41,575 bases of DNA. Origin: Prevotella sp. (GTDB lineage: Bacteria; Bacteroidota; Bacteroidia; Bacteroidales; Bacteroidaceae). Every line of letters starts with the position of its first letter. The first letter of the stretch is position 1. The notes under the pieces were generated by a model. That model was given only the letters and a program-made list of their open reading frames with translations. It ran no database searches and had not been told where the DNA came from. The position numbers and the translations under genes were made by a program. This document shows positions 4,434 to 32,526 of this stretch, in pieces. The stretch covers positions 1-41,575 of the forward strand of contig JAFTFO010000041.1 in assembly GCA_017449495.1 (NCBI GenBank), read 5' to 3'.

Positions 4434-5372
4434 ATGAGAGCATCACTTGTTACAATACTACTTTGTTTGGCGGGCCTCACGGCAGAGGCTCAGGAGGAGA
4501 TAGTCTTTACACCCCAGTGGACGGCACAGGCGCAGTTCGCGGGCTACTACGTGGCCGAGGCGAAGGGTTTTTACCGTGAGGCGGGGGTGAAGGTAAAAAT
4601 TCAGCATCCTTCTGCCACGCAACCAGCTATGGCTCGATTACGTTCCAATGAATGTCAGGCCACGACATTGCAGCTCTGTCAGGCGCTGGAGATTGTGGAT
4701 GATGGGATTCCACTGGTAAATATCTTGCAGACATCGATGAACAACGCCATGGTCATCGTCTCGGCAAAGGATAAGGATCCGCTCTCGCAGAAGGGAGCCC
4801 GCGTGGGCATCTGGAGCGTGGGCTTCGGACAGTTGGCCATCTGCATGAGCATCAAGGACCATCTGGACTACCAGTGGGTGCGCATCGCTCAGGGCGTCAA
4901 CCTGTTCGTTGCTGGTGCGCTCGACGCCACGCTGGCCATGAGCTACAACGAGTACTACCAACTGATTCAGGCAGGCATGCAGATCAGCGACAAGGCGGTC
5001 TACCGCTTCTGTGACCACGGCTACAACGTGCAGGAGGACGGCGTCTACATGACTCGCGAATACTACCAGACGCACCGCCAGCAGGCCCGCAAGTTTGCCG
5101 AGGCCAGCCGCAAGGGCTGGGAGTGGGCCGCCCAGCATCCCGACGAGGCGCTGGACATCGTGATGCAGTACGTCGATAAAGACCGCATCGCCACCAACCG
5201 CACGCTGCAGCGCCTGATGCTGAAGGAGGTGCTGCGCCTGCAGGTGGACCGCGAATCGAAGAAACGCGAGTTCCGTCTGCGCCCCGACATGGTGAAACTG
5301 GCCAGCAGGCTGATGGTGGACAACATGATGCTGGGGCGGGAAGTGACGTACGAAGAGTTAATTGACAATTGA
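4434..5372 (+). CDS. NMT1/THI5-like periplasmic solute-binding protein (SsuA/ThiY family)
   Basis: A 312-residue secreted binding protein. Residues 1-20 are a signal peptide ending LTAEAQ. The family pattern follows: FTPQWTAQAQFAGYYVAEAKGFYREAGVKV, then a switch-like segment GARVGIWSVGFG near residue 122. Relatives bind thiamine precursors, sulfonates or nitrate and feed ABC importers, but no permease or ATPase is adjacent. It lies between the alarmone synthetase and a membrane sensor, so it may present a ligand to that sensor (inference). The final codons and the stop lie in the AATTGAY repeat at 5359-5391. Confidence 0.85.
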   Translation: MRASLVTILLCLAGLTAEAQEEIVFTPQWTAQAQFAGYYVAEAKGFYREAGVKVKIQHPSATQPAMARLRSNECQATTLQLCQALEIVDDGIPLVNILQTSMNNAMVIVSAKDKDPLSQKGARVGIWSVGFGQLAICMSIKDHLDYQWVRIAQGVNLFVAGALDATLAMSYNEYYQLIQAGMQISDKAVYRFCDHGYNVQEDGVYMTREYYQTHRQQARKFAEASRKGWEWAAQHPDEALDIVMQYVDKDRIATNRTLQRLMLKEVLRLQVDRESKKREFRLRPDMVKLASRLMVDNMMLGREVTYEELIDN

Positions 5373-5391
5373 TAATTGAAAATTGACAATT
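5359..5391. repeat. 7-bp tandem repeat (AATTGAY) spanning stop and start codons
   Basis: Five units of a 7-base motif. The stop of the upstream gene (5370-5372) is inside the repeat, and the repeat ends directly at the ATG of the next gene. Confidence 0.85.
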
Positions 5392-7767
5392 ATGAAGAAA
5401 ATCATTGCCTATATCCGTCGGCGGCTGTCCGTGAAGCTGAGCCTGTGGGTGGTGCTGTTCGCCGCCGTCATCTTTAACTCGGCCCTCGCCTTCTTCGTCT
5501 GGCAGGCCCGCGAGGCGGTGCACCAGGAGGCTATCAGCCGTGCCACGCAGATCCTCGATAAGACCTCCCTCCGCGTAGAGGGCATTCTGAACCGCGTGGA
5601 AGTGGCCACGCAGATGACCGAGTGGCTGGTGCAGCGACACCCCGACAAGGCCGACTCGATGTTCGTCTACAGCCGCGGCATGCTACTGAACAACCCCGAC
5701 TTCTACAACTGCTCCATCGCCTTCGAGCCGTACCACTTCAAGGACAAGGGTCGCTACTTCTCGGCCTACTCGATGATGAGCGGCGACAGCATCCGCACCA
5801 TCCAGGGCGGCAGCGACCACTACCAGTACTTCTACATGGACTGGTATCTGATGCCCACGCTGATGGACCGCCCGTGCTGGACGGAGCCGTACATGGACTT
5901 CGACGCGCCGACCAACAGTTACGCGATGGTGACCAGTTACTGTCGGGCCATCAAGGACAAGGCGGGACGGGCAATTGGCGTCATCAACACCAGTCTGTCG
6001 CTGAACTGGCTCTCGAAGACCATCTCCGAGACGAAGCCCTATCCCAACTCTTACAGCATCATGATAGGCCGCGGTGGCACGTACTTTGTGCATCCCGACA
6101 CGACGAAGATTACTCGTCAGACCATTTTTACGCAGACCATAGACCAACCCGATACGGCCATGACCGCCCTCGGCCATGCCATGCAGCGCGGCGAGGAGGG
6201 CATGAAGCGGATGGAAATCGACGGCACCGACTGCTACGTTTTCTATAAACCGCTGGGACAGACGGGCTGCTCGATGGCCATCGTCTGCCCGGAGAGCGAC
6301 ATCTTCGGTGGCTTCAACCGGCTGCGCCACATCGTGTGGGCCATCATCACGGTGGGCCTGCTGTTGATGCTCGTCTTCTTCATCCGCATCATCACCCGCG
6401 AACTGCGTCCTCTCGGGCAGTTGGCCCAGGAGACGGAGACCATCGCCTCGGGGCAGTTCGACGCCCAGATTCCCGACCTCCACCGCACCGACGAGATAGG
6501 GCAGCTGAGCCATTCGTTTGCCGGTATGCAGCAGTCGCTCGTGCGCTACATCGAGGAACTGAAGGACACCACCGCGCAGAAGGCTTCGATAGAGAGCGAA
6601 CTGAACATCGCCCGCGCCATCCAGATGGCCATGCTGCCCAAGACCTTCCCGCCGTTCCCCGACTGCGACGAGGTGAGCATCTACGGCCAACTGACACCCG
6701 CCAAGGCCGTGGGCGGCGACCTCTACGACTTCTACATCCGCGACCAGAAACTGTTCTTCTGCATCGGTGACGTGAGCGGCAAGGGCATCCCGGCCTCATT
6801 AGTCATGGCCGTCACACGGGCTTTGTTCCGCACCATCTCCGCCCACGAGGAGCGGCCGGAGCGCATCGTCAGCCAACTGAGCAACACCATTGCCGAGGAC
6901 AACGAGATGAATATGTTCGTCACGCTGTTCGTCGGCGTGATGGACTTACAGACGGGTCACATGGATTACTGCAATGCGGGCCACGATGCCCCTCTGCTTA
7001 TCTCAAAGGACGGAAGCCGTCTTGGGTTGCTTCCAGTCGACAGTAACCTGCCCGCCGGAGTGATGCCGGGCTGGGCGTTCAGCCTGCAGGAAACAGTCAT
7101 CGACAGCGGCACGACCATCTTCCTTTACACGGACGGCCTGACTGAGGCAGAAAATGCCACGCACGGGCAGTTTGGCGACGAGCGTGTGCTTGATACAGCA
7201 CGCAGCATCTGTGCCGATGGCCGCCAATCGCCGCGGTCGTTGGTGGAGCGGATGGTGGACGCCGTCCACGCCTTCGTCGGCGACGCCGAGCAGAGCGACG
7301 ACTTGACGATGATGGCCATACAGTACAATCCCAAGGCTACTGCTGACGGGCTGCGTCACCACTCCATCACCCTGCCCAACGACATCGATACCGTTCCGCA
7401 GTTGCCGGAGTTCATTGACGAGGTGGCCGAGGATGCTGCACTGGACGCATCGCTGACCATGAGCCTGAACCTGGCCATCGAGGAGGCGGTGGTCAACGTG
7501 ATGCAATATGCCTATCCCGAAGGCACGAAGGGCACGGTGAACATCGTGGCCACGATAGCCGACGGCGTGCTCTCGTTCGTCATCAGCGACAGCGGCAAGC
7601 CCTTCGACCCCACAGCCAAGGCAGAAGTCGACACGAAGCTCTCGGCAGAGGAACGTCCCATCGGCGGACTGGGCATCCATCTGGTCCGTCAGATTATGGA
7701 TGACGTCGCCTATGAGCGGAAAGACAACAAGAACGTCCTGACACTCAGCATAAAGGTAAAAAAGTAA
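5392..7767 (+). CDS. Membrane sensor with HAMP, PP2C/SpoIIE phosphatase and RsbW-like kinase domains
   Basis: A 791-residue partner-switching hub. A transmembrane segment near 14-35 and a second near 311-333 enclose an extracytoplasmic Cache-like sensor domain (motifs YMDWYLMPTLMDRPCWTEPY and ATGVI-like AIGVIN). Next come a HAMP linker (ELRPLGQLAQETETIASGQF), a SpoIIE/RsbU phosphatase (about 403-645; AVGGDLYDFY, GDVSGKGIPASLVM, CNAGHDAPL, DDLTMM), and a GHKL anti-sigma-type kinase (about 660-791; LAIEEAVVNVMQYAY, GGLGIHLV). One polypeptide could therefore both phosphorylate and dephosphorylate the STAS protein encoded next. I chose ATG 5392; an upstream TTG at 5383 lies inside the repeat. Confidence 0.92.
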   Translation: MKKIIAYIRRRLSVKLSLWVVLFAAVIFNSALAFFVWQAREAVHQEAISRATQILDKTSLRVEGILNRVEVATQMTEWLVQRHPDKADSMFVYSRGMLLNNPDFYNCSIAFEPYHFKDKGRYFSAYSMMSGDSIRTIQGGSDHYQYFYMDWYLMPTLMDRPCWTEPYMDFDAPTNSYAMVTSYCRAIKDKAGRAIGVINTSLSLNWLSKTISETKPYPNSYSIMIGRGGTYFVHPDTTKITRQTIFTQTIDQPDTAMTALGHAMQRGEEGMKRMEIDGTDCYVFYKPLGQTGCSMAIVCPESDIFGGFNRLRHIVWAIITVGLLLMLVFFIRIITRELRPLGQLAQETETIASGQFDAQIPDLHRTDEIGQLSHSFAGMQQSLVRYIEELKDTTAQKASIESELNIARAIQMAMLPKTFPPFPDCDEVSIYGQLTPAKAVGGDLYDFYIRDQKLFFCIGDVSGKGIPASLVMAVTRALFRTISAHEERPERIVSQLSNTIAEDNEMNMFVTLFVGVMDLQTGHMDYCNAGHDAPLLISKDGSRLGLLPVDSNLPAGVMPGWAFSLQETVIDSGTTIFLYTDGLTEAENATHGQFGDERVLDTARSICADGRQSPRSLVERMVDAVHAFVGDAEQSDDLTMMAIQYNPKATADGLRHHSITLPNDIDTVPQLPEFIDEVAEDAALDASLTMSLNLAIEEAVVNVMQYAYPEGTKGTVNIVATIADGVLSFVISDSGKPFDPTAKAEVDTKLSAEERPIGGLGIHLVRQIMDDVAYERKDNKNVLTLSIKVKK

Positions 7768-28109: not shown

Positions 28110-28583
28110 ATGAAAGTAAGGTTTTATCGTTGGTACAATGCATTGCTCTCCTCGCTGCTCGCCATGTTGGGCTTTGCATCTTGTAGTAGTGATGAGGAAG
28201 AGGGTGGTTTTCTTGAGATGTATGGTGTGGTGATTCCGAATTTCGAGTGGCGTGGCACAGTAACGAATGAAGCAGAGGCTCCCATTCTGGGTATTTCGAC
28301 ACAGGTGAAATTTGCGATACAGGATTATGATGATCCTTCGAAAGTGAATTATTATAACGTCGATTCAGTGACGACAGATGCTAACGGGCGCTTTGCTGTT
28401 CGTGTTCCTGACGATAAGGTTTCTAATTTTAAGCTTATCCTTCAAGATATTGATGGAGATGCTAACGGTGGTACATTCCAGTCCGACACGCTGACTTTGA
28501 CAGATCTGGTTGTAGAGGAAATTTCGGACAAAAACACACCCAAAAGGTATGAGATTAAGAACAAAATAAGACTTAAAAAGTAG
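28110..28583 (+). CDS. Putative lipoprotein of the rSAM/lipoprotein system, copy 1
   Basis: A 157-residue lipoprotein; lipobox LGFASC with Cys25. The leader begins MKVRFYRWYNALL and shares 18 of 25 residues with the next gene's leader. The mature part has MYGVVIPNFEWRGTVTNE, VDSVTTDANGRFAV, LILQDIDGDANGGTFQSDT and ends IRLKK. The GxVT...PI...G.FAV layout suggests a carboxypeptidase-regulatory-like beta-sandwich. It matches what I recall of the lipo_with_rSAM family (TIGR04134), always found near its radical SAM enzyme. Unlike copy 2 it has no cysteine beyond the lipidated one. Base composition is more AT-rich than its neighbours. Confidence 0.82.
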   Translation: MKVRFYRWYNALLSSLLAMLGFASCSSDEEEGGFLEMYGVVIPNFEWRGTVTNEAEAPILGISTQVKFAIQDYDDPSKVNYYNVDSVTTDANGRFAVRVPDDKVSNFKLILQDIDGDANGGTFQSDTLTLTDLVVEEISDKNTPKRYEIKNKIRLKK

Positions 28584-28589
28584 AAGAGC

Positions 28590-29078
28590 ATGAAAGTAAG
28601 ATTTAATCGTTGGTACAATGCTGTTTTGACAGCCCTGCTGGGGTTGCTGGGCTTTGAGTCGTGTGATTCGCCTGATGAGTATGGTCCAATTCCATGTGAG
28701 TATGGTACACCATGCGCAGATTATCAGATCTCAGGTATAGTAACAGATGAGAGTAATTCGCCAATAAAAGACATCAAGGTCTCTGCCAAGTTTGTATATC
28801 AGGCGATTGATGGGAGAGTAGAGACTTATGGTGTTGACTCCACTCAGACGGATGGATTGGGCAAGTATGCCTTCGAAAGTCGTAGATTCTATGGTGATCC
28901 TGACCTGAAATTGATTGTCGAAGATATAGATGGTGAGGGCAATGGTGGTGATTTCAAGAGCGACACCATCGACATTGACTACGACAACGCCAAGAAGGTG
29001 AAAGAACCTGCTAAGGGTGATTCCTGGAGCACAGGCACTTATGCCATTAATCAAGATATAAGACTGAAGAAGAAATGA
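28590..29078 (+). CDS. Putative lipoprotein of the rSAM/lipoprotein system, copy 2
   Basis: A 162-residue paralog of the preceding gene, which it follows after six bases. Lipobox LGFESC, Cys25. The mature part contains CEYGTPCADYQISGIVTDE, with two extra cysteines around YGTP, then DSTQTDGLGKYAF, LIVEDIDGEGNGGDFKSDT and the C-terminal IRLKKK. The shared DIDGxxNGGxFxSDT block is the longest conserved stretch between the copies. It is the presumed substrate of the radical SAM enzyme, whose ATG overlaps this stop codon (ATGA). Which residue is modified, if any, is unknown. Confidence 0.83.
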   Translation: MKVRFNRWYNAVLTALLGLLGFESCDSPDEYGPIPCEYGTPCADYQISGIVTDESNSPIKDIKVSAKFVYQAIDGRVETYGVDSTQTDGLGKYAFESRRFYGDPDLKLIVEDIDGEGNGGDFKSDTIDIDYDNAKKVKEPAKGDSWSTGTYAINQDIRLKKK

Positions 29079-30169
29079 AAGCGACCCCACTGACCCTCAA
29101 GAAGAAGATTGCCCTCGAACTGTGGCGGGAGCAGAACAAGTTGGCGGCAAAGGAGCACCCTCTGCGCCAACTCTTCTGGGAGTGTACCCTGCGCTGTGAC
29201 CTCAAGTGCCGCCACTGTGGCAGCGACTGCAAGATGCAGGATGCCTCGAAGGACATGCCAAAGGAAGATTTCTTCCGAGTGCTCGATGGAATCGCGAAAA
29301 AGACCGATCCCCACAAGGTGTTCGTGATCATCTCCGGCGGTGAGCCGCTGATGCGTAAGGATATCGTGGCGTGCGGAGCCGAGATTTATCGGAAGGGGTT
29401 CCCGTGGGGCATGGTGACCAATGCCCTCCATCTCACCCCACAGCGCTTTCAGGGATTACTGAGGGCAGGTATGGGGTCGATGACCATCAGCCTCGACGGT
29501 CTGGAGGAAGACCATAACTGGATGCGGGGCAACGAACGGAGTTTCCAGATGGTGAGTCAGGCCATCGATATGCTCGTGGCTACCGAGGGCTTCACCTTCG
29601 ACATCGTCACCTGTGTCACCCGCCGTAATTATCAAAAACTCGATGAAATCAAGGAATTTCTGATATCGAAAGGCGTGAAGCGCTGGCGACTCTTTACAGT
29701 CTTCCCTGTGGGTCGCGCTGCCCTCGATCCGATGATGCGACTCTCGAACGAGGAGTTCCGTGGGGTCTTTGACTATATTAAAAAGGTACGCGAAGAGGGA
29801 CGCATCCGTGCCGACTACGGTTGTGAGGGCTTCCTCGGCAACTACGAAGGTGAAGTGCGCAACCGTCTCTTCTCCTGTCAGGCTGGGGTCTCGGTAGGCT
29901 CCGTAATGGCCGACGGATCCATCGCCGCCTGTGCCAGCATCCGTGCCGACTATAATCAGGGCAACATCTATGAAGATGACTTCATGGATGTGTGGGAGAA
30001 CCGTTACATGCTGTATCGTGACCGCAGTTGGATGAAGAAGGGCGAGTGTGCCGACTGCAAGTACTTCCGCTACTGTCAAGGTAACGGTATGCATCTCCGC
30101 GACAGAGAAGGAAAGCTATTGCTTTGCCATCTGAAACGACTCAATACCAGTTCTAACAATCCGCTTTAA
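29075..30169 (+). CDS. Radical SAM/SPASM enzyme of the rSAM/lipoprotein system
   Basis: A 364-residue radical SAM enzyme. The SAM-binding cluster motif is CDLKCRHC (Cys41, Cys45, Cys48), followed by ISGGEPLMR and SLDG. The C-terminal SPASM region carries auxiliary Fe-S ligands at about Cys268, Cys286, Cys325, Cys328, Cys334 and Cys351 (CADCKYFRYCQGNG). SPASM enzymes usually modify peptides or proteins. It overlaps the second lipoprotein gene by four bases and corresponds to what I recall as TIGR04133. The lipoproteins are its likely targets (inference). The hairpin terminator at 30219 follows. Confidence 0.9.
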   Translation: MKATPLTLKKKIALELWREQNKLAAKEHPLRQLFWECTLRCDLKCRHCGSDCKMQDASKDMPKEDFFRVLDGIAKKTDPHKVFVIISGGEPLMRKDIVACGAEIYRKGFPWGMVTNALHLTPQRFQGLLRAGMGSMTISLDGLEEDHNWMRGNERSFQMVSQAIDMLVATEGFTFDIVTCVTRRNYQKLDEIKEFLISKGVKRWRLFTVFPVGRAALDPMMRLSNEEFRGVFDYIKKVREEGRIRADYGCEGFLGNYEGEVRNRLFSCQAGVSVGSVMADGSIAACASIRADYNQGNIYEDDFMDVWENRYMLYRDRSWMKKGECADCKYFRYCQGNGMHLRDREGKLLLCHLKRLNTSSNNPL

Positions 30170-30218: not shown

Positions 30219-30256
30219 TGCATCCGTGCTTAGGCACGGATGCAATCGTTTTATTT
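30219..30256 (+). terminator. Terminator after the rSAM gene
   Basis: A perfect 11-bp stem TGCATCCGTGC/GCACGGATGCA with loop TTAG is followed by a T-rich run. It lies between convergent genes, and the minus side also has a run of T, so it may work both ways. Confidence 0.85.
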
Positions 30257-31516
30257 TAGCTGTTTGCCATCAGAAAACGCCTTCCCGACAGTCTTGCCGA
30301 GCTGGATGTAAGTGTGATGTATCGGGTCATAGGTGATAATTCCCATCTTCTCTACGTCAGGGTTGCCGTCTTCTGCCAGATACTTTTCATCGCAGAGGAT
30401 ATTCACGATCTCTGCCACCAGATAATAGCCTGTCTCTGACTCGTCCATCTTCTCTTTCACACGGCACTCCAGAGTAAGAGGCAGATTGGTGAATACAGGT
30501 GCATTCACGTTGGGGGCCTTCTCAATGGTCCAACCTGTGCGAGCCATCTTGTCGGGTGTGTTACGACCACTGACGATACCCACATAGTCGGCAGCCACCA
30601 TTGTCTCTGCCGTAGCGAAGCTGACAGTCAGAGCATCGTTCTCCTTGAGGTTGTCGGTCGTAGCATGTGAGCTCAACGAGATGATGATCTCATGCATGTC
30701 CCACTGACCACCCCAGGCTGCGTTCATAGCATTGGGCTTACCCTCTTTGTTGTAGGTGCCGATAATCAGCACAGGCTGTGGAAGCATCCACGGATTTGAT
30801 TTAAAACTTTTCATAGATTCTACTGTATTAATGTTAGACTTGTTGTTTAATGCTGATTGTATGTCGGCCTCGATACTGGCCATCTTGTCTGTCGGCTCAT
30901 AGCGCTTCATGACTCGACCGTCACGAGAGACAAGGAACTTGGTGAAGTTCCACTTGATATCGGGATTTTTGTCGTAGTTGGCATCCCTCTTGCGCAACAT
31001 CTGGTCCATCATCTTGCCCGTCTGGTCGTTCAGGTCGAAGCCACCAAAGCCCTTCAGCGCCTTCAGATAGGTGAAGAGTGGCGACTCATTCTCCCCGTTT
31101 ACGTCAATCTTATCGAACTGCGGGAACTCGATGTCAAAGTTGGCCGTACAGAACTGGTGAATCTCCTGAATGGTGCCAGGAGCCTGTTCCCCAAACTGGT
31201 TGCAAGGGAAGTCGAGTATCTCCAGCCCTTCAGAATGATACTTCTCATAGAGCGCCTCCAGTTCCTTGTACTGAGGCGTGAATCCGCAACGGGTAGCGGT
31301 GTTTACTATCAGCAGCACCTTACCTTTGTAGTCGGCCAGCGACACGTCCTTGCCTGCATCGTCCTTCACCTTGATGTCGTAAATGCTCTTTTCCTTGCAG
31401 CAGTCGCCGCCGCTTTGTTCCTTGCAGCAGTCGTTGCCGCACGATTTCTTCTCTTGTGCCGAGATTCCCAGCACACACATTGTTGCCATCAGGCAGATAG
31501 TCATTAATTCTTTCAT
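30251..31516 (-). CDS. Secreted fusion: glutathione peroxidase plus flavin-reductase-like domain
   Basis: A 421-residue fusion. Residues 1-20 are a signal peptide; 26-40 are cysteine-rich (CGNDCCKEQSGGDCC). Residues about 45-224 are a glutathione-peroxidase fold: peroxidatic Cys77 (NTATRCGFTPQY), FPCNQFGEQ and KWNFTKFLV. Residues 235-421 are an FMN-binding split barrel of the flavin reductase/flavoredoxin family (MKSFKSNPWMLPQPVLIIGT, NAAWGGQWDM). The linker NNKSNINTVES reads like a former intergenic leader, so the fusion may result from loss of a stop codon; Met235 at 30814 could still start a separate product. It is the third gene of the peroxide operon. Confidence 0.85.
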   Translation of the reverse strand: MKELMTICLMATMCVLGISAQEKKSCGNDCCKEQSGGDCCKEKSIYDIKVKDDAGKDVSLADYKGKVLLIVNTATRCGFTPQYKELEALYEKYHSEGLEILDFPCNQFGEQAPGTIQEIHQFCTANFDIEFPQFDKIDVNGENESPLFTYLKALKGFGGFDLNDQTGKMMDQMLRKRDANYDKNPDIKWNFTKFLVSRDGRVMKRYEPTDKMASIEADIQSALNNKSNINTVESMKSFKSNPWMLPQPVLIIGTYNKEGKPNAMNAAWGGQWDMHEIIISLSSHATTDNLKENDALTVSFATAETMVAADYVGIVSGRNTPDKMARTGWTIEKAPNVNAPVFTNLPLTLECRVKEKMDESETGYYLVAEIVNILCDEKYLAEDGNPDVEKMGIITYDPIHHTYIQLGKTVGKAFSDGKQLK

Positions 31517-31964: not shown

Positions 31965-31983
31965 AATTGTCAATTGTCAATTA
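31965..31983. repeat. 7-bp tandem repeat (AATTGAC) between gpx and the OhrR-like gene
   Basis: About two and a half units on the minus strand end directly at the ATG. The arrangement is the same as at 5359-5391. Confidence 0.8.
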
Positions 31984-32526
31984 AGTCAGCATGGCTTCAA
32001 TGTCCTTCTCAAAGTCCTTCGGCTCCGTTGTTGGCGCATAGCGTTTGATGGTCTCACCGTCTTTTGAAATCAGGAATTTGGTGAAGTTCCATAAGATGTC
32101 GCTGTCCTTCTCTACGCTCTTGCTGATTTTCTTGAGCATGGCGTGTGTGGCCTTGGCCTTCAGACCCTTATATTCCTCGGTGGGTGCCTGAGCCTTCAGA
32201 TACTCGAAGATAGGCTCGGCGGCAGCACCGTTCACGTCCGTCTTCTTCATAATCTGGAACGTCACGCCGTAGTTCAGCTGGCAGAACTCCTCAATCTGTG
32301 CGTCGTTACCCGGATCCTGCTCCTTGAACTGGTTGCAGGGGAATCCGATGATCACCAGTCCCTTGTCCTTGTATTTCTGGTTCAGTTCCTCCAGTCCAGC
32401 AAACTGGGGCGTGAAACCACACTTGCTGGCAGTGTTCACTATCAGCAGTACCTTACCTTCAAACTCCTTGAAGTCAATCTCTTTTCCTTTGCTCGTCAGA
32501 GCCTTGAAATCATAAATCTTAGTCAT
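31981..32526 (-). CDS. Glutathione peroxidase (thiol peroxidase type)
   Basis: A 181-residue cytoplasmic peroxidase. The active site is NTASKCGFTPQF (Cys in place of selenocysteine), then FPCNQFKEQ and LWNFTKFLI complete the Cys-Gln-Trp set. Enzymes of this type in bacteria usually use thioredoxin to reduce hydrogen or lipid peroxides. It is first in the operon with the OhrR-like gene and the peroxidase/flavin-reductase fusion; the fusion's peroxidase half is a paralog. Confidence 0.94.
   Translation of the reverse strand: MTKIYDFKALTSKGKEIDFKEFEGKVLLIVNTASKCGFTPQFAGLEELNQKYKDKGLVIIGFPCNQFKEQDPGNDAQIEEFCQLNYGVTFQIMKKTDVNGAAAEPIFEYLKAQAPTEEYKGLKAKATHAMLKKISKSVEKDSDILWNFTKFLISKDGETIKRYAPTTEPKDFEKDIEAMLT

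Follow-up and report, generated by a model that had tools for sequence, protein, structure and literature searches.

A conserved Tyr-Gly word in lipoproteins encoded beside TIGR04133 radical SAM/SPASM enzymes, and a possible splicease-like chemistry

Where a radical SAM/SPASM gene closes an operon of two lipoprotein genes, the question arises whether the lipoproteins are its substrates, which residues it would act on and by what chemistry. Such an operon lies in the window analysed here, by which we mean the whole stretch of 41,575 nucleotides of contig JAFTFO010000041.1 (Prevotella sp., probably of gut type, genome 68% complete). Its genes and their parts are the following:

28110..28583, + strand: lipoprotein 1, candidate substrate, TIGR04134; 157 aa, lipobox Cys at residue 25, 81.4 bits
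28218..28235, + strand: M-Y-G-V-V-I, followed by P, residues 37-42 of lipoprotein 1, candidate modified site; Y38 and G39 are invariant columns
28590..29078, + strand: lipoprotein 2, candidate substrate, TIGR04134; 162 aa, 122 bits
28677..28718, + strand: E-Y-G-P-I-P-C-E-Y-G-T-P-C-A, residues 30-43 of lipoprotein 2; two YG words in the stretch from lipid anchor to domain
28923..28967, + strand: acidic block DIDGEGNGGDFKSDT, starting at residue 112 of lipoprotein 2; a feature of the domain, not a conserved site
29075..30169, + strand: radical SAM/SPASM enzyme, TIGR04133; 364 aa, 579.1 bits, cluster motif WECTLRCDLKCRHCGS

The layout described in an earlier note on this DNA is borne out by the coordinates: the lipoprotein genes are six bases apart (28583 and 28590), the second overlaps the radical SAM gene by four bases (ATGA), and the near-identical leaders agree in 18 of 25 residues (56 of the first 75 nt are the same). 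The rSAM/lipoprotein families named in that note were recovered by the NCBIfam models, both lipoproteins scoring over the cut-off of TIGR04134 (39.8) and the enzyme over that of TIGR04133 (425); NCBIfam types both models as hypothetical equivalog. Pfam finds Radical_SAM and SPASM in the enzyme, both over cut-off, and a carboxypeptidase-regulatory-like domain, below cut-off, in the lipoproteins. The G+C content is 42-44% in the lipoprotein genes, compared to 55% in the enzyme gene and 53% in the window. Beyond the operon, on the minus strand, a 421-aa ORF (30251-31516) fuses a glutathione-peroxidase (GSHPx) domain (136 bits) to a flavin-reductase-like domain (43.5 bits), and a second GSHPx gene is found at 31981-32526.

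Based on an alignment of 37 TIGR04134-like proteins, four columns are invariant, namely Y38, G39, G91 and, within the signal peptide, G21; YG is present in 37/37 and YG.P in 35/37. The criteria for the set were profile match and length, not the word itself, although the profile used includes the YG columns. Of 52 lipoproteins of 140-185 aa from outside the window, 35 entered the alignment, so that the short type is largely missing. The acidic NGG block, which the earlier note had proposed as marker of the site, did not survive this comparison. Its words DIDGDANGGTFQSDT and DIDGEGNGGDFKSDT are both found in the window lipoproteins, which speaks for a modified block, but D.DGxxNGG occurs in 4 of the 37 relatives (D[IVTAS]DG in 23), and the YG carriers of unrelated type described below do not match the TIGR04134-like domain profile. 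As YG is invariant and D.DGxxNGG rare, we regard YG as the conserved site and the block as a feature of the domain; modification of the block is extremely improbable and was rejected. The words CEYGTPC and EMYGVVI had rightly been noticed, but were read as a difference between the copies, while it is their common part, YG, that is invariant; of the two YG words of lipoprotein 2, the second occupies the invariant columns. In the predicted structure of this protein (mean pLDDT 88.5), both words lie within a low-confidence stretch at about residues 21-40 (pLDDT 55-63), between a signal helix (2-19) and beta strands that begin at 42. A sequence search of lipoprotein 2 against the PDB gave no match.

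The Cys residues on either side of YG in CEYGTPC could also suggest a thioether from Cys to a residue near YG, and if the lipobox Cys is counted, 100 of 133 YG.P sites have a Cys no more than 12 residues away. The other 33 of these sites have no Cys at this distance, however, and in the 146 sites chosen for comparison the residue before YG is C in 43 only, always the lipobox Cys (otherwise mostly E, V, M, K, L or A), so that such a bond is very improbable. Because the chosen sites favoured those with a Pro in reach, their +3 Pro count is inflated; the YG.P counts given here are unaffected. Within the TIGR04134-like sites chosen, YG is located 1-14 residues past the lipobox Cys in 95/97, and is directly preceded by it in 43/97.

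Among 392 genomes sampled from the order, TIGR04133 exceeds its cut-off in 97 and TIGR04134 in 58. The pairing of the two is directly observed: TIGR04133 is present in 53 of the 58 TIGR04134 genomes vs 44 of the 334 others (over cut-offs; Fisher p 1.2e-32; the two genome listings were matched by eye). Two further TIGR04134 genomes (G301 and G247) hold only TIGR04133 relatives of 344-355 bits, and another (G362) a TIGR04133 fragment with a TGA. Lipoproteins that are common without the enzyme, which would speak against the substrate role, were not found, as just 2 of the 58 genomes (G199 and G263) are without TIGR04133 at E 1e-20. Measured by these cut-offs, more genomes have the enzyme than the lipoprotein family, and one may ask what the substrates of the remaining enzymes are.

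We turned to the gene neighbourhoods and took stretches of at most about 10 kb, one for every enzyme place over cut-off, five for weaker ones and 20 for lipoproteins located away from any over-cut-off enzyme (one of which, L198, had a weaker enzyme). Counting the window, this gave 141 sequences with 124 enzyme ORFs. At 98 of these 124 ORFs, a profile built from the window's two lipoproteins recognised a same-strand TIGR04134-like frame. In the first 70 mature residues, 97/98 of these enzyme-adjacent lipoproteins contain YG and 85/98 YG.P, compared to 29/59 and 20/59 for lipoproteins of other types near the enzymes, and 6/75 and 0/75 for lipoproteins elsewhere in the same loci. Shuffled sequences gave a mean of 32.2/157 and a maximum of 49 in 200 runs, the observed count being 126. 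Furthermore, a small ORF with YGx(1-3)P adjoins 115/124 enzyme ORFs vs 13/122 control anchors. Nine places are missed by this rule: four (L126, L143, L170, L176) have a YG lipoprotein outside it, two (L154, L180) sit at the end of a contig, and for the last three (L102, L109, L140) the rules applied find no neighbour with YG. One adjacent TIGR04134-like lipoprotein, in L176, is without YG.

The 26 enzyme places without a TIGR04134-like neighbour bear on the substrates of the remaining enzymes: 18 have a lipoprotein of another type with YG, three (L122, L123, L132) another small ORF with YGx(1-3)P, and five neither of these, two of them at contig ends. The lipoproteins of other type include helical ones (VYGSPEV) and short low-complexity ones (KYGVPVN), five genes of the latter kind standing in a row in L130. 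In L132 (1-4698), a carrier of about 119 aa, in which no lipobox was found, displays three VEC(I/V)YGPPPG repeats beside a TIGR04133 enzyme. The words of these unrelated carriers are mostly YGxP, with some exceptions (MYGVRRN, DYGVIRV). A carrier domain as definition of the system was rejected, YG carriers being of several unrelated types. L136 and L146 each contain a tandem pair of TIGR04133 enzymes, adjoined by YG lipoproteins of two different types.

Away from the enzyme, the word is kept less strictly. Of 15 TIGR04134-like lipoproteins without an adjacent enzyme, 11 contain YG and 8 YG.P, and 3 of the 23 TIGR04134-like frames in loci without enzyme have no YG at all (L190, L194 and one in L201). 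Three genomes, G263, G847 and G199, contain the lipoprotein but no TIGR04133 match better than E 1e-20. In two of them the domain is kept and the Tyr lost: the G263 lipoprotein reads GNGSPYAKF, compared to EYGTPSAKF in its relatives, and that of G847 reads NKTPHADY, resembling the NKMPHADY of a second paralog in G117, a genome which does have the enzyme. In G199, YG is kept in both lipoproteins despite no enzyme having been detected. Given the small numbers and the incompleteness of G847 (75% complete), the Tyr losses should be taken as support and not as proof.

One could still argue that the lipoproteins are mere partners or scaffolds, that YG is a docking word and that the true substrate is to be sought elsewhere, and this reading gains from any modification being so far a prediction. 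The presence of multiple YGxP words in one carrier, the unrelated carriers and the loss of Tyr in two enzyme-less genomes nevertheless fit a modified site better, so that we consider docking improbable. The substrate role, which the earlier note had put forward as an inference, is supported by co-occurrence and motif: the lipoproteins are very probably the substrates, with YG as the site, and the enzyme would act on this motif.

How would such an enzyme find its substrate? Its predicted structure (mean pLDDT 91.5) displays a barrel pattern and a SPASM part, with one helix at the N-terminus and nothing that resembles an RRE domain; nor was an RRE partner such as PlpY seen in the window operon, which consists of three genes only. 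The signal peptides of 142 enzyme-adjacent lipoproteins have a median length of 25, vs 22 in 75 control lipoproteins, and an Arg together with Trp or Tyr near their start is found in 34% vs 11%. Along with the invariant G21, these traits fit a role as leader, which the signal peptide would then take over.

By sequence, the enzyme has seven distant matches in the PDB, the best being PqqE (E 9.8e-10), and 13 invariant Cys residues are common to 39 aligned enzymes. It is not a plain member of the PlpX family: on TIGR04103, the model which we take to be equivalent to IPR026482, it scores 110.9 bits against a cut-off of 725, and four other SPASM families score higher. On a scan of IMG/VR, which gave five relatives of 26-34% identity, a phage origin was likewise rejected. 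In one IMG/VR contig, filed as viral (L331, about 4586-6005), a distant radical SAM relative (26%) directly follows a 113-aa ORF of spliceotide type, starting with MGMPMLMYGVALNEA.

Splicease-like enzymes were searched for more widely. In 395 genomes of the phylum, TIGR04103 gave seven matches at E < 1e-60, none over cut-off, the best two of which adjoin peptides of 56-59 aa that contain xYGV or xYGA. When named genomes were scanned with ten aligned enzymes, at least 79 loci were obtained; among the matches listed, an xYG-type ORF (adjacent xYG peptides or YGxP repeats, a pattern written after viewing the neighbour words) lies on the same strand in 52/79 and on the opposite strand in 13/79. 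For 11 enzymes of this splicease-like group, TIGR04133 ranks third or fourth among the models, in every case behind TIGR04103 and TIGR03913, in three also behind TIGR04053 and in two behind AhbD. The enzyme of L206 (G634, a genome of the same class as that of the window) is identical to one of Flavobacterium tructae. TIGR03913 is over its cut-off in L250 (Caulobacter), L251 (Calothrix) and L257 (Oscillatoria), while the Flavobacterium type of L206 reaches 525.9 against 591.75. The proteins next to the enzymes of L210 (2955-3596) and L215 (5035-5796) hold six KYGYP repeats and nine YG words; both enzymes score on TIGR04103 as well as TIGR04133, and L210 belongs to the window's own family. In Methanosarcina (L301, L304), HCGS-type enzymes lie near very short ORFs ending in RPLYGVPLK, and the YG word may thus exist in archaea too.

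A careful tree of 61 rows, containing 17 of the 42 dereplicated TIGR04133 rows and not PlpX itself, and with its root not inferred, falls into three sides: the splicease-like rows (97/89), TIGR04133 with L212 and L214 (100/100), and an outgroup of AhbC, AhbD, TIGR04053-like, PqqE and other SPASM rows, which a 99/97 branch parts from the other two. Long or oddly composed rows were left out (L223, L227, L325, the outgroup rows L218 and L219, and the splicease-like L299); a quick tree that included them gave the same groups, except that L320, labelled outgroup, stood among the splicease-like rows and was relabelled. TIGR04133 alone has a support of 89/27, and its place is not certain because of a long stem (1.61) and the root not having been inferred. 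G49, S50 and W204 are shared by TIGR04133 and the splicease-like rows (at least 97% of each) and occur in 0/12 outgroup rows, G49 and W204 being partly built into the splicease-like set, which was fetched partly by patterns with CxHCG and WQ.Q. The boundary of the system is marked by L212-L214, TIGR04133-like enzymes of 222-247 bits without a YGxP neighbour; the two of them in the tree set have no HCGS, and L213 reads HCTC.

Citations for the PlpXY splicease and its spliceotides include Morinaka 2018 and, as the main splicease survey, Scott 2022. PlpX, assigned to IPR026482, was characterised together with the RRE protein PlpY (PMC11002830, excerpts). PlpXY spliceases excise tyramine at XYG, with MYG and LYG as natural sites, and the published splice tags include GPIRPLYGLPI and GAVAAGYGVVFPG (PMC10533398, excerpts). 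The latter, as we read it, derives from a natural core in which G replaces M. Placed in FtsZ, it was marked unmodified at the sole position listed, and short PIRP-GYG-LPI tags were unmodified at several (PMC10533398). MYGVVIP in copy 1 of the window and EYGVVFP in a lipoprotein of L131 are close to GAVAAGYGVVFPG, and YGxP is close to GPIRPLYGLPI; a spliceotide-type XYG site is present in both window lipoproteins.

Other radical chemistry at YG has to be weighed against splicing, be it a three-residue cyclophane from the Tyr ring to the residue after Gly, epimerisation or cleavage of the Tyr side chain. By score TIGR04133 falls outside the splicease family, Tyr is invariant, and at position +2 T, S or V prevail, residues that have a beta hydrogen. 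Against this, Gly is invariant in the aligned set, although a cyclophane is not known to require it, and among 133 YG.P sites Pro occupies +2 in 7 and Ala in 6. MftC, which acts on Tyr and an adjacent Val (PMC8326336, excerpts), is among the families that outscore TIGR04103 on the window enzyme; on the other hand, MYGVV and YGxP resemble the published splice tags (PMC10533398, excerpts) and the nearest enzymes in the tree have adjacent xYG peptides. These alternatives taken together seem rather unlikely to us. That the enzyme is splicease-like and edits the lipoproteins by splicing is, judging from words, neighbours and tree, moderately probable, the chemistry being what we infer.

TIGR04133 would then be a peptide-modifying radical SAM/SPASM enzyme whose substrates, mainly surface lipoproteins, would be marked by XYG(x)P and not by a domain. 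It would recognise the preprolipoprotein in the cytoplasm prior to export, perhaps with the signal peptide as leader, as suggested by the lack of an RRE-like domain in the enzyme model and of a further operon gene, and would act on the Tyr-Gly of the flexible stretch next to the lipid anchor. Excision of tyramine (about -135.07 Da) would remove most of the Tyr from the chain, and the edited lipoprotein would be exported, lipidated and displayed on the surface, where it would carry an electrophilic ketoamide close to the membrane. The function would lie in protease trapping or covalent tethering. An anti-protease role at the cell surface would be plausible, since spliceotide products have been described as protease inhibitors (PMC11117315, excerpts); together with these, the I42 inhibitor domains with YG/YA repeats discussed below suggest, but do not show, such a function. 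As a whole, the wider picture is tentative: folded, membrane-anchored surface proteins might be backbone-edited by tyramine excision with the export signal as leader, their surface alpha-ketoamides might act as covalent protease traps or tethers, and one branch (43/97 TIGR04134-like sites) might rebuild the lipid-bearing Cys into an N-terminal lipidated alpha-keto-beta-amino acid.

The YG site turns the TIGR04133/TIGR04134 pair into a question for one experiment, with a predicted change of mass. Should splicing prove true, anchored surface proteins would join small peptides as objects of backbone editing, and their natural ketone would offer a handle for labelling. The accessions TIGR04133 and TIGR04134 were not mentioned in the literature searched, and no connection of TIGR04133 with YG and splicing turned up among the matches listed, although Scott et al. 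2022 (Chem, doi 10.1016/j.chempr.2022.09.017) may cover part of it. In the main text of a survey of Bacteroidales RiPP clusters, the word "lipoprotein" occurs 0 times (PMC10352776).

Several known systems invite comparison. PlpXY and the spliceotides share with the window system a SPASM radical SAM enzyme, the XYG site, the MYGVV and YGxP words (PMC10533398, excerpts) and a neighbouring group in the tree, which holds splicease-like rows but not PlpX itself. Unlike in PlpXY, the window enzyme would act on a membrane lipoprotein that has a folded domain, an RRE was not seen, the operon has no further gene and the enzyme scores below the TIGR04103 cut-off. The TIGR03913 maturases of GDL-motif peptides possess the same WExTxxCNxxCxHCGS motif as the window enzyme, and at L250, L257 and the Flavobacterium loci the adjacent peptides, some 55-65 aa long, have xYGV or xYGA close to the N-terminus (none of this kind was seen beside L251); they differ by a longer enzyme and by small peptides without lipobox. 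Chagasin-type Inhibitor_I42 proteins with YG or YA repeats, for example KYGxP (L215) and KYAxP (L291), adjoin related enzymes, but unlike the window substrates are not lipoproteins. Inhibitor_I42 exceeds its cut-off (27.2) in L291 and L295, narrowly misses it in L215 (26.8) and L309 (25.2), and was not found in L210, L296, L298 and L305. The I42 inhibitor of L291 (3138-3941; 43.8 bits), next to a splicease-like enzyme, carries KYAAP/KYATP repeats, and the Gly of YG may therefore not be absolute across the wider group. The rSAM/lipoprotein system TIGR04133/TIGR04134, finally, is the same as that of the window, with both models over cut-off, adjacent genes and co-occurrence; the NCBIfam pair ties the enzyme to one lipoprotein domain, whereas the common feature found here is YG, mostly as YGxP.
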